Assembly (NCBI RefSeq): GCF_013927005.1
Contig: NZ_CP055930.1
Location: 2,728,001 to 2,792,000, forward strand
Source: Enterobacter sp. RHBSTW-00175
Lineage (GTDB): Bacteria > Pseudomonadota > Gammaproteobacteria > Enterobacterales > Enterobacteriaceae
Reading direction: 5' to 3'
Length of the DNA stretch: 64,000 nt
The position numbers and the translations under genes are program-made. Shown in pieces: positions 51,489 through 54,052 of the stretch (positions are counted from its first letter, which is position 1; each line of letters starts with the position of its first letter). A model generated the notes under the pieces. That model saw only the letters and a list, made by a program, of their open reading frames with translations, ran no database searches and was not told the origin of the DNA.

Positions 51489-51926
51489 CGATGAAGTCCT
51501 GTTACGGTTGGCTGGATGAGGCGTTTCTTAAGCCTGTAACGGGATCACATAACAAAATCAGGGGGATGTAAATCGTAAATCTATAGATTTGATGAATTTT
51601 TGTGGGATCTGAGAAGAAGGGCTGGATGCGACGGATTTGTCGTTAAAGGTAATTTAGCGAATGAACAGACGAAAATAAGACTGAGTTTCAAGCCAGCGAT
51701 TTGCCAGTATCCCCCAAATCCTATTTCCTGAATCCTCCTCGCATTTCCCAAATTTACCCATCCCAAAACCGCTGTATTTATATTCAGCTCTGTATAATAG
51801 GCAGCAGTAATTACGCCAGTCGGCAAAGGAAGTATCAAAGGGAAATAAACGAAGGATTTCGCGATATGAAGGTGCAGCAACACCCTCATACCGCTAACCA
51901 CAAACAACTATCTACAGGAGTTGAAA
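51489..51926 (+). other. 438-bp intergenic region upstream of symE
   Basis: No gene is supported. It contains the LexA-controlled symE promoter (51772-51798) and an approximately 128-nt symE leader in which a SymR-type antisense RNA would be expected; its promoter could not be located by eye. Confidence 0.5.
51772..51798 (+). promoter_or_regulatory. LexA box and -10 of the symE promoter
   Basis: CTGTATTTATATTCAG (51772-51787) fits the CTG-N10-CAG LexA box. A perfect TATAAT lies six bases further (51793-51798), so LexA would block RNA polymerase. This matches SOS control of symE in E. coli. Confidence 0.82.
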
Positions 51927-52382
51927 ATGGCTGCGACGAATTTTAAGCCAGAGTTTACTGTTTGCAAAACAGAATCAGACGCTTTTACCGGCGTGATTGA
52001 AAACCACGAGCTGGTACGCAAAAATAGCGCCCGCCGTCTTCACGGCAACCAGACCCGTACCTCGCCCGTCCATCCACGGGCGGAGACGCCGCAAGCGAGT
52101 TCGGCCTGCTGCGAACTCTATTCACGGGTGGACAATAATTATCTTCCTCTGGAGGGGGAGTGGTTATCCCGGGCGGGTTTTATTAACGGGATGCCGGTCA
52201 AAATCCGGGTGATGAAAGACTGCATTGTGATTACGCCACAACATACAAGAGAATTATGGGGATGCCTGGATGGTATGAGTGTGGTGAATATAAATAAACA
52301 GAAAGTCGCGCAGTGGTTAAAAACATTTCCGGGAGTTTTAAATGATACCGGCGATATTCCGATAATTAAGCGTAACGCCTGA
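51927..52382 (+). CDS. symE: SymE-family toxin (type I toxin-antitoxin)
   Basis: A 151-residue protein with the SymE domain at residues 70-120: YLPLEGEWLSRAGFINGMPV and KIRVMKDCIVITPQ, an AbrB-like swapped-hairpin fold. SymE of E. coli is an SOS-induced protein that inhibits translation or compacts the nucleoid, held back by the antisense RNA SymR. The start at 51927 has an AGGAG ribosome site. The C-terminus (GVLNDTGDIPIIKRNA) is longer than in E. coli SymE (113 aa). Confidence 0.85.
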   Translation: MAATNFKPEFTVCKTESDAFTGVIENHELVRKNSARRLHGNQTRTSPVHPRAETPQASSACCELYSRVDNNYLPLEGEWLSRAGFINGMPVKIRVMKDCIVITPQHTRELWGCLDGMSVVNINKQKVAQWLKTFPGVLNDTGDIPIIKRNA

Positions 52383-52431: not shown

Positions 52432-53430
52432 TCAAAATACCGGCACCCCCAGCCCAACCTTCACCTCCCTCAACGTCCCCTGCGTCACTCCCTGCGCCCG
52501 TTCCGTTCCGCGTTTCAGCATCGCCATCAATTCCCCCTTGTCCTGCATATACATCGCCCGCCGTTCGCGCATCGGGGCTATCAGCTCCTGCAGGCACGCT
52601 TCCAGTTCGTTCTTACACACCCGGTCACCCAGCCCGCCCGCCTGATAGTGCGCCTTCATCGCCGCCACCTTGTCTTTGTCCGGATGAAACGCGTCGAGGT
52701 AGGTAAACACCACATTCCCCTCAATCTGCCCCGGATCGTTCACTTTCAGGTGGTTTGGGTCGGTGTACATCGCGCTCACCGCACGGTGAATCGTCTCTTC
52801 GCTGGCGGAAAGGTGCAGCGTGTTGCCGAGCGATTTCGACATCTTGGCGCTGCCGTCGATGCCGGGCAGGCGGCTGGTGTCGCTCAGCATCGCCTTGCAG
52901 TGGCGCAGCACCGGGGCGGGCAGCAGGCTGTTCATCTTGTGCACAATCTCGTTAGTCTGTTCAATCATCGGCAGCTGGTCGTCGCCAACGGGCACGCATT
53001 CGGCCTTAAACGCGGTGATGTCCGCCGCCTGGCTGATGGGGTAGGCCATAAACCCGACCGGCAGCGAGCGGGCAAACCCTTTCTGCGCAATCTCATTTTT
53101 CACCGTCGGGTTACGCTCCACGCGGGCAACGGTGACGATGTTCATATACAGCATCGTCAGCTCGGCAAGGGCGGGCAGGGCGGATTGCAGGCAGATAGTG
53201 GTCAGGTTCGGGTCGATGCCCGCGGCCAGATAATCGGCCAGCACTTCGGGGATGTTATCGCGGATCTTCTGCGGGTTGCTGCCGTTGTCGGTCAGCCCCT
53301 GCAAATCGGCAATCAGCACAAACTGGTTGTGCGTCTGTTGCAGCGCCACGCGCTGGCGCAGTGAACCGACATAGTGACCAAGGTGCAGCGGGCCGGTCGG
53401 GCGATCGCCGGTAAGAATAGTGGTGCTCAT
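52432..53430 (-). CDS. trpS2: Second tryptophanyl-tRNA synthetase
   Basis: A 332-residue class I synthetase. The HIGH-type motif is GDRPTGPLHLGHYVGS, the KMSKS motif SAKMSKSLGN, and the tryptophan-pocket region includes DQLPMIEQTNEI. It charges tRNA-Trp; the housekeeping trpS is normally near dam and gph, so this is a paralogue like Salmonella TrpS2. Such second TrpRS enzymes can give resistance to indolmycin-type inhibitors. The gene is preceded by a Trp-codon leader peptide and terminator (53470-53584), suggesting induction when tryptophanyl-tRNA is scarce. Confidence 0.93.
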   Translation of the reverse strand: MSTTILTGDRPTGPLHLGHYVGSLRQRVALQQTHNQFVLIADLQGLTDNGSNPQKIRDNIPEVLADYLAAGIDPNLTTICLQSALPALAELTMLYMNIVTVARVERNPTVKNEIAQKGFARSLPVGFMAYPISQAADITAFKAECVPVGDDQLPMIEQTNEIVHKMNSLLPAPVLRHCKAMLSDTSRLPGIDGSAKMSKSLGNTLHLSASEETIHRAVSAMYTDPNHLKVNDPGQIEGNVVFTYLDAFHPDKDKVAAMKAHYQAGGLGDRVCKNELEACLQELIAPMRERRAMYMQDKGELMAMLKRGTERAQGVTQGTLREVKVGLGVPVF

Positions 53431-53469
53431 AAAAACTCCTTAACGTATCAATGCCGAAAGGGGTCTTTA

Positions 53470-53498
53470 AAACACAATAGCCGCCTTTCGGCGGCTAT
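53470..53498 (-). terminator. Attenuator terminator upstream of trpS2
   Basis: On the minus strand ATAGCCGCC-GAAA-GGCGGCTAT is a nine-pair stem (53477-53498) followed by TGTGTTTTAAA, 40 bp before trpS2. The upstream segment GGCGGC near 53523-53528 can pair with GCCGCC of the stem as an antiterminator, and GCCTT-CTTA-AAGGC (about 53526-53539) forms the 1:2 hairpin overlapping the leader peptide end. Confidence 0.75.
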
Positions 53499-53530
53499 CT
53501 GGAAATGGGTAAAACAACTCCGGGCCGCCT

Positions 53531-53584
53531 TTAAGAAGGCTGCCACCAACGGTTTACGGTGAGCACGGCGTGGTTTATGTTCAT
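53531..53584 (-). CDS. Trp-codon leader peptide of trpS2
   Basis: A 17-codon frame [17 protein letters not shown] with two adjacent Trp codons three to five codons before the stop. The stop codon overlaps hairpin segment 1 of the attenuator. Ribosomes stalling at TGG TGG under tryptophanyl-tRNA shortage would favour the antiterminator and allow trpS2 transcription, the classical trp-operon logic. The ribosome site is weak (GGTAACCGG), which lowers certainty. The gene is too short for normal gene calling. Confidence 0.75.
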
Positions 53585-53629
53585 CCGGTTACCGTACCAT
53601 GTCTCACACAAAAAACAACAGGGCACATC

Positions 53630-54052
53630 ATGCTGCAATCGCTCAACCACCTGACCCTTGCGGTCAGCGACCTGCAAAAAAGTCTGACCTTCTGGCACGA
53701 TGTACTGGGTTTAACGCTCCATGCCCGCTGGGATACCGGGGCGTATCTCACCTGCGGCGATCTGTGGCTCTGCCTCTCTTACGACGAGGCGCGCCGTGTC
53801 GTGCTGCCGCAGGAAAGTGACTATACCCATTACGCGTTTAGCGTCGCGGAACAGGATTTTGCACCGTTCTCGCACAAGCTTGAACAGGCGGGCGTCACCG
53901 TCTGGAAGCAGAATAAAAGCGAGGGAGCGTCGTTCTATTTTCTCGACCCGGACGGGCACAAGCTGGAGCTGCATGTGGGCAACCTCGCCGCGCGGCTGGC
54001 GGCGTGTCGGGAAAAACCCTACGCAGGAATGACGTTCTATCCGCAGGGTTAG
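53630..54052 (+). CDS. fosA: FosA fosfomycin glutathione transferase
   Basis: A 140-residue VOC-superfamily metalloenzyme, full length for FosA. Mn2+ ligands are His7 in LNHLTLAV, His in [10 protein letters not shown] and Glu in GHKLELHVG; the K+-loop region [15 protein letters not shown] is intact. It adds glutathione to fosfomycin, inactivating it. Chromosomal fosA is common in Enterobacter and Klebsiella. Start chosen at MLQSLNHLT; upstream in-frame starts are not conserved. It is divergent from the trpS2 leader, only 45 bp away. Confidence 0.93.

Follow-up and report, generated by a model that had tools for sequence, protein, structure and literature searches.

The leader of trpS2, the gene for a second tryptophanyl-tRNA synthetase (TrpRS) in Enterobacter sp. 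RHBSTW-00175, is very likely a real and conserved attenuator of this auxiliary TrpRS gene. Comparison of homologous loci favours, with a probability of roughly three in four, a ribosome-stalling Trp attenuator that would be read out at both transcription and translation. The window, i.e. the whole stretch of DNA that was analysed, comprises 64,000 nucleotides, and the complete element extends on its minus strand from the promoter at about 53618 to the trpS2 start codon at 53428, so that the interval 53470-53584 originally delimited by the sequence-only reading proved too short. The parts of the element and the flanking genes are as follows.

52432-53430, minus strand: trpS2, second tryptophanyl-tRNA synthetase, 332 aa (TIGR00233, 218 bits, cut-off 177)
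53630-54052, plus strand: fosA, upstream of trpS2, with the leader between the two
53613-53618, minus strand: -35-like element TTGTTT of the putative trpS2 leader promoter, 16-nt spacer (TT enriched at -35/-34)
53591-53599, minus strand: extended -10-like element TGGTACGGT, 6 nt upstream of the leader ATG
53531-53584, minus strand: leader peptide ORF, 17 codons, probably leaderless (AUG at or near +1)
53584 and 53531-53533, minus strand: leader ATG and stop codon TAA, respectively
53543-53548, minus strand: tandem Trp codons TGG TGG, putative stall site
53523-53544, minus strand: 1:2 hairpin (GCCTT/AAGGC plus flanks), with the stop codon in and beside its loop (MFE fold)
53524-53529, minus strand: region 2, GGCGGC, partner of region 1 or region 3
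53490-53499, minus strand: region 3, GATAGCCGCC, 5' arm of the terminator-like hairpin
53476-53485, minus strand: region 4, GGCGGCTATT, 3' arm of the terminator-like hairpin
53476-53499, minus strand: 3:4 terminator-like hairpin
53468-53479, minus strand: interrupted U-tract following the G-C core of 3:4, with T at 5 of its first 8 nt
53484-53492, minus strand: 'decoy' GCCGAAAGG, complementary to region 5 and spanning the end of arm 3, the loop and the first bases of arm 4
53453-53469, minus strand: region 5, UAAAGACCCCUUUCGGC, anti-SD strand, partner of region 6 or of the decoy
53431-53441, minus strand: region 6, the SD (AAGGAG, 53436-53441) and following bases, buried by region 5 in the OFF fold

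The TrpS2 protein shares 27% identity with the other TrpRS of the genome, and the solved chains closest to it in sequence are 2a4m ('Tryptophanyl-tRNA synthetase II') and 1yi8, both from Deinococcus. The plus-strand fosA gene is divergent from trpS2 across positions 53431-53629 of the window, which presumably places the fosA promoter within the trpS2 leader or antisense to it. A SymE-like ORF on the plus strand (51921-52382) is convergent with trpS2 and weakly matched (38.5 bits against a cut-off of 132), and the same window carries a Magnesium-II riboswitch (RF01056, 6245-6359, plus strand, 97 bits).

The conservation of the leader was assessed in the best 80 of 582 relatives retrieved by a trpS2-homologue search of genome contigs. 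Under a fixed rule (an ATG-initiated ORF of 12-45 codons, with two adjacent Trp codons, WW, at codon 9 or later and a start 140-260 nt upstream), a WW leader was found in 72 of these 80 loci, or 73 when counting L025, which keeps a single Trp, lies outside alignments A1 and A2 and was added by hand to the leader set. The same rule detected 0 WW leaders in 217 control upstream regions, taken from other mechanically called ORFs, 150 codons or longer, of the same loci. The leader was absent from seven of the 80 loci (L065, L072, L075, L076, L078, L079 and L080). The WW leader at trpS2 is not a chance occurrence, and the 17-codon leader with tandem Trp codons recognized in the window by the first reading is borne out. 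In A1, a frame-blind DNA alignment of 50 leader units, the gaps before the WW codons measured 3, 6 or 9 nt in 31 of 31 cases, all multiples of three as expected for a translated frame, and TGGTGGC was invariant in these 50 rows as well as in the 21 rows of the distant set A2. The peptide ahead of WW was variable in sequence and measured 11-14 codons among the 73 leaders. A further alignment, A3, held 38 units (L061 and L067 left out for length; L030, L033 and L034 added), and the structural comparisons below rest on a non-redundant set of 37 loci, kept at an 80% cut from 74 leader units (the window, the 72 loci and L025).

This pattern bears on what the leader would sense. Ribosomes stall on a short leader both in attenuators that read tRNA charging through codons and in those in which the nascent peptide senses free tryptophan or a drug, either TnaC-like or drug-stalled, and a dual control by a terminator and an SD hairpin is described for the drug-stalled Bacillus subtilis yxjB leader (PMC6851288). 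However, the residues before WW vary in sequence and in length whereas UGG-UGG is invariant in the alignments, and a synthetase gene would have little reason to be induced by excess Trp. Nascent-peptide sensing is on these grounds highly improbable, and we favour a response to Trp-tRNA charging at the codons.

The weak ribosome site of the leader had been regarded as the main doubt. The site is indeed weak, a property which would be explained if the leader AUG were the 5' end of the transcript. Relative to the A of the leader start codon, the columns enriched in the 37 loci were TT at -35/-34 (81% and 62%), and TG at -15/-14, TA at -12/-11 and T at -7 (62-78%). The best -10-like hexamer ended 6 nt before the ATG in 18 of the 37 loci and 7 nt before it in 6, being located elsewhere in 13, and a -10-like box at 6-7 nt would place +1 about at the leader AUG. 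The promoter of the window itself is weak by consensus and its -35-like element was not listed by a simple scan. The mean anti-SD energy was -3.4 for the leaders, compared to -2.0 for the upstream control and -7.6 for trpS2, whose starts were picked by SD; energies of -4 or better were obtained for 17 of 37 leaders versus 7 of 37 upstream controls. In 14 of these 17 leaders, no pairing base lies downstream of -7; all of them fall within the -10 box or ahead of it and would be absent from a leaderless transcript. A ribosome site located within the -10 box, with a TAGGG-like sequence in some loci, was set aside, as a -10 box accounts for the enriched columns better than an SD does. The Proteus locus (L123) is an exception, with a leader GTG placed after an SD-like AAGGA. 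The leader AUG is probably leaderless, but an upstream promoter may serve the leader instead. A comparable arrangement is described in passages of PMC7298713 for Sinorhizobium meliloti trpL, a leaderless trp leader whose transcript starts at the leader-peptide AUG, but which controls trpE(G) in an alphaproteobacterium.

In the Salmonella locus (L020, 1668-1828, minus strand), the sRNA isrQ (RF01399, 123.9 bits) is located back-to-back with the trpS2 leader. It was rejected as an earlier description of the leader because it is carried by the other strand, runs away from the leader and overlaps only its first 4 nt and the promoter. The part of PMC2515195 concerning isrQ gives 0 reads in both libraries.

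The complementary pieces for the mutually exclusive 1:2, 2:3 and 3:4 pairings, as postulated from the sequence, are all present in the window, region 2 (GGCGGC, 53524-53529) being able to pair with the GCCGCC of region 3 at 53490-53495. A translated leader ORF with tandem Trp codons followed by exclusive 1:2, 2:3 and 3:4 pairings is part of what characterizes trp-type attenuators. When the leader strand was folded, a check that had been suggested beforehand, the stretch 53416-53584 reached -56.7 kcal/mol (z -3.73), with 1 of 200 shuffles as stable, and the shorter stretch 53416-53500 gave a z of -6.66 with 0 of 200 shuffles as stable. The stability of the sub-stretches 53494-53545 (z -1.34) and 53494-53532 (z 0.81) was unremarkable. 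The MFE fold of the window corresponds to an OFF state made of 1:2, 3:4 and 5:6, in which most of the SD is enclosed. Only the hairpins 1:2, 2:3 and 3:4 had been named at the outset; the helix sequestering the SD, which is widely conserved, had been missed.

The pairings 2:3, 3:4, decoy:5 and 5:SD were submitted to a swap test, in which the duplex energy of a locus's own strands was compared with that of swapped strands (37 non-redundant loci, 20000 permutations). Permutations as good as the native combination numbered 1 of 20000 for 2:3, and 0 of 20000 for 3:4, for the decoy (arm 3 plus loop) with region 5, and for region 5 with the SD. By contrast, the negative controls stayed flat in the 37 loci, with 12281 of 20000 for region 2 with the SD and 3870 of 20000 for arm 4 with the SD. 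A later set of 10 loci (L094-L096, L113 and L120-L125), whose similarity does not exceed 0.79 to the 37 and 0.77 among themselves, was parsed with slightly looser patterns, the near-copies L093 and L097 being left out. Here the counts out of 20000 were 11 for 2:3, 0 for 3:4, 1 for decoy:5 and 0 for 5:SD, and the negative controls were again flat (9826 for region 2:SD and 13594 for arm 4:SD). The permutations ignore phylogeny, and the guard against its effect lies in the negative controls, which share the same phylogeny and remain flat.

Column counts agreed with the swaps. In the 5:6 columns, counted over 39 of the 74 units (those with an AAGG-type SD and a TTCGG core, 26 different rows), 80% of cells were paired, versus 36-60% in slid registers, and 18 cells showed double changes; in the 3:4 columns, from which L057 and L061 were left out for their other loop lengths, 86% of cells were paired and 46 showed double changes. 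For both helices, 0 of 2000 column shuffles did as well on either count, while the number of extra pair types did not exceed that of the shuffles (317 of 2000 for 5:6 and 192 of 2000 for 3:4). RNAalifold on alignment A4 reported changes on both sides in 3 of 20 pairs, all within 3:4; hairpin 1:2 is seen in the folds and showed no both-side changes in this analysis. The low number of compensatory pairs in A4 is due to the conservation of the enteric set, for which reason the cross-clade swaps and the column counts were relied upon. The register of the SD helix also differs between clades, being CCUU/AAGG in the Enterobacter and Klebsiella types and CUCC/GGAG in the Hafnia, Edwardsiella and Vibrio types, which suggests selection for burial of the SD and not inheritance of one helix.

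The energy of the 5:SD pairing was -6 kcal/mol or lower in 35 of 37 loci, compared to 52% in a control with base-shuffled region 5, and -8 or lower in 28 of 37, compared to 21%; the two loci with a weak pairing, L013 and L035, reached -5.3. It should be noted that an SD was the basis for choosing the trpS2 start codons, so that the strong mean anti-SD energy of trpS2 given above is partly built in; the TTG picks of L052 and L067 were replaced by hand. Since the shuffled controls often reach -6, the claim is carried by the swap and column tests and not by the energies. A conserved helix burying the SD, together with an alternative partner for the anti-SD strand, both of which covary in the 37 and in the 10 additional loci, points to a second, SD-sequestering tier as a likely part of the element. 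The conserved and covarying WW codons, reading frame and 2:3 and 3:4 pairings support the initial proposal of a trp-operon-type attenuation applied to a TrpRS paralogue, and the alignment of trpS2 upstream regions, also proposed in advance, retrieved both the WW codons and the compensatory changes that it was to look for.

We infer the following course of events, including where transcription starts, that the ribosome stalls, that termination occurs in vivo, in which order the RNA folds and what the physiological signal is. A sigma-70-type promoter would start the transcript at or next to the leader AUG, and the leader would be translated leaderless. When Trp-tRNA is plentiful, the ribosome would pass UGG-UGG, reach the stop codon and cover region 2, so that 3:4 would form and many transcripts would terminate; in the transcripts that are read through, region 5 would pair with the SD and trpS2 would remain untranslated (OFF state, 3:4 and 5:6). 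When Trp-tRNA is short, through starvation or through inhibition of the housekeeping TrpRS, the ribosome would stall on UGG-UGG and mask region 1. Region 2 would then capture region 3, preventing 3:4, and transcription would go on, while the decoy exposed around the 3:4 loop would capture region 5 by the time the SD is made, so that the SD would stay free (ON state, 2:3 and decoy:5).

Forced folds of the 37 loci were compared with this scheme. The mean probability of the SD being unpaired was 0.15 when 3:4 was forced. Forcing 2:3 alone raised it to 0.19 (higher than with 3:4 in 27 of 37 loci, but by more than 0.2 in 1 of 37), so that folding does not support release of the SD by 2:3 alone. By contrast, forcing decoy:5 raised it to 0.39, with a value higher than with 3:4 in 34 of 37 loci and by more than 0.2 in 20 of 37. 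The 3:4 hairpin was more stable than 2:3 in 32 of 37 loci, and decoy:5 lay within 1 kcal/mol of 2:3, or below it, in 16 of 37. Given that 3:4 is the more stable structure and that 2:3 hardly frees the SD, the ON state must rest on the order of synthesis, as in other attenuators. The calculated folds thus permit a switch without proving one, and release of the SD by the decoy would be its mechanism.

With regard to termination, the GCCGCC/GGCGGC terminator predicted from the sequence exists as a hairpin and its 3:4 arms covary, but its U-tract is interrupted in the window: T occupies 5 of the first 8 nt after the 3:4 G-C core, compared to 7 in Rahnella and 6 in Klebsiella grimontii, and the first 4 nt of the tract are shared with arm 4. 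Three T or fewer in 8 were counted in 12 of the 37 loci. According to a second measure, in which the score is taken after the whole folded stem, five of these 12 (L056, L064, L071, L074 and L077) score above 2, with U-rich tails after a longer stem in L064, L074 and L077; the idea that the Vibrio loci form a group without terminator was dropped on account of such tails. The mean score after the stem was 1.57 in 27 Enterobacterales loci and 1.69 in 9 Vibrionaceae/Cocleimonas loci. Seven of the 37 loci (L040, L041, L043, L048, L061, L062 and L066), which correspond to Photobacterium and to a Pluralibacter-like enteric group, were U-poor by both measures (at most 3 T in 8, score below 1), yet their 5:SD energies ranged from -7.8 to -17.1 kcal/mol. 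A good terminator is thus no more widely kept than the SD helix.

These data could also be read as a plain transcription attenuation of the trp-operon type, with region 5 being incidental or a constitutive damper of translation. The classical layout with its terminator-like hairpin, the good U-tracts of loci such as those of Rahnella and Klebsiella grimontii, the similar U-tract means of the two groups and the SD that stays buried when 2:3 alone is forced would all suit such a device, but the covariation of 5:SD and decoy:5 in the face of flat controls, and the stable SD helices of the seven U-poor loci, make it unlikely. Within the two-tier reading that we prefer, release of the SD, whereby a decoy mimicking the trpS2 SD titrates the anti-SD strand, might be the output that is ancestral and conserved, with efficient terminators as additions of particular lineages. 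We hold this view only tentatively and would sooner bet against it; it had appeared close to even until the second U-tract measure, by which Enterobacterales and Vibrionaceae are alike, lowered its odds.

In other bacteria, trp genes are controlled by T-boxes, by TRAP-like proteins or by TrpR operators. Protein or tRNA binding of this kind would leave the translated WW leader unexplained, and no Rfam family reached its cut-off on the leader strand of the window and of eight relatives, so that we attach next to no weight to it. A T-box, a riboswitch or another known RNA family was discarded, the matches obtained in 53380-53700 (STnc50, isrK, leuA-Halobacteria and Trp_leader) being far below cut-off.

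To establish which TrpRS genes carry the leader, 18 of the 80 genomes were examined for further TrpRS genes (E at most 1e-8). At least one further TrpRS was found in 11 of 11 leader-bearing genomes. In six of the seven genomes without the leader, namely five Acinetobacter and one Candidatus Enterovibrio, the copy lacking the leader was the sole TrpRS found. The seventh, Pseudoalteromonas luteoviolacea, has three TrpRS genes, one of the trpS2 type without leader, one of the trpS2 type with a WW leader and one of another type. The leader marks auxiliary TrpRS copies. In a protein tree of 53 rows, the two marine copies lacking the leader form one clade (support 100/98) nested among the leader-bearing copies, which makes a loss of the leader in that clade probable, and Acinetobacter and the distant L112, which have no leader, lie near the drawn root. 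In Candidatus Enterovibrio escacola (L065/L114), the only TrpRS detected is on a plasmid record, and it is the tree sister of the cluster-like copy of P. luteoviolacea.

In P. luteoviolacea (L075 and L113), the copy without leader is located at a locus like an indolmycin cluster and the WW-leader copy is elsewhere. The former adjoins ORFs that on visual inspection were taken for an aminotransferase and a LuxR-type regulator, and the locus resembles the indolmycin cluster described for other strains in passages of PMC5069768. TrpS2 of the window is related by sequence to the TrpRS at this locus, with 66% identity. TrpS2 might itself be resistant to the inhibitor indolmycin.

The distribution of the element was further explored with a covariance model, R1, built from 16 enteric sequences. 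In the genome of the window, R1 found one strong place, the next best having an E of 1.45. Among 119 genomes sampled from the family, trpS2 was present in 14 and the leader lay upstream in 14 of 14, directly adjoining the gene in 13; in the remaining one, L089 (1501-1820), an insert of about 150 nt, placed where the loop of the 5:6 hairpin is expected, separates region 5 from the SD, and both strands are still complementary. R1 matched 16 places in these 119 genomes: the 14 just described, a decayed trpS2 and a chance match. The decayed gene, in a Salmonella-like genome (L092, about 1159-1649), matches only residues 5-19 and 234-332, and both Trp codons of its leader have turned into Arg codons. 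A role of the element at other genes was rejected, as the R1 matches in the genome and family samples are at trpS2 bar the one chance match. In 185 genomes of the class, R1, which is enteric-biased and was run with stricter filters on large samples so that distant versions would be missed, matched only the genome of the window. In a wider class sample, trpS2 was detected at E 1e-100 in 2 of 369 genomes (that of the window and L112), and a near-identity search found the whole stretch in 1 of 5426 E. coli genomes, on a plasmid. Among the matches listed, 17 of 40 plasmid records, all from Klebsiella (H25-H41), match trpS2 at residues 78-332 only; under the match, two of these records carry an IS1A annotation and a third that of a transposase.

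Ribosome-mediated attenuation of an auxiliary trpS of Streptomyces (trpRS1/trpS2) has reportedly been described in S. coelicolor by Vecchione and Sello in 2010. For Streptomyces avermitilis, a candidate Trp-codon attenuator before the auxiliary trpS is presented in passages of PMC1262725. The likeness, as far as these passages go, lies in an auxiliary TrpRS gene placed behind a Trp-codon leader; the Streptomyces case is actinobacterial and the passages mention no SD-sequestering relay, whereas the element studied here belongs to Gammaproteobacteria and combines a region 5/SD relay with a promoter fused to the leader AUG. The pheST attenuator serves a housekeeping synthetase and reads Phe codons. 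It is presented for gammaproteobacteria, in passages of PMC1262725, as a classical attenuation of a synthetase operon, a feature it shares with the trpS2 leader, but it involves no auxiliary paralogue.

The enterobacterial trp operon leader (RF00513, Trp_leader) resembles the trpS2 leader by its WW codons and competing hairpins. The genome's own true copy scores 74.1 bits against RF00513, compared to 15 bits for the trpS2 leader, below the gathering cut-off of 41; the latter differs by an interrupted U-tract, in contrast to the 8 consecutive T of the genome's trp operon leader, by the lack of a clear leader SD and by the extra region 5. In the B. subtilis yxjB and vmlR leaders, a stalled leader ribosome controls both an intrinsic terminator and translation (PMC6851288 and PMC9226507), through an SD-sequestering hairpin in the case of yxjB (PMC6851288). 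These leaders concern Firmicute resistance genes with antibiotic-stalled ribosomes, whereas uncharged cognate tRNA is the predicted signal for trpS2. No description of an attenuator on trpS2 of Enterobacterales or Vibrionales was found among the matches listed, in open-licence literature. The sequence-only reading, which was aware of no described case for enterobacterial trpS2, holds to that extent, but it overlooked the attenuator already known for Streptomyces trpS2. Trp-codon attenuation of an auxiliary trpS is known already; what sets the present element apart is its gammaproteobacterial setting and its likely second, translational tier.

In Salmonella, trpS tolerates insertions, and the authors suggest, in passages of PMC3487940, that trpS2 makes trpS dispensable; trpS2 (STM4508) is also listed at 2-fold together with trp genes in a biofilm table, the part of PMC2805695 that bears on it. 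Auxiliary synthetases provide a survival route against tRNA-synthetase inhibitors and amino acid shortage. A switch confining the spare TrpRS to periods of Trp-tRNA shortage would explain its low-cost upkeep in Salmonella, Klebsiella, Enterobacter, Vibrio and their relatives; under such a switch, the spare TrpRS is predicted to be induced by inhibitors directed at TrpRS. The SD relay further illustrates how one stalled ribosome might govern both termination and translation initiation, and it makes the order of the termination and SD steps testable in a natural, highly replicated sequence set.
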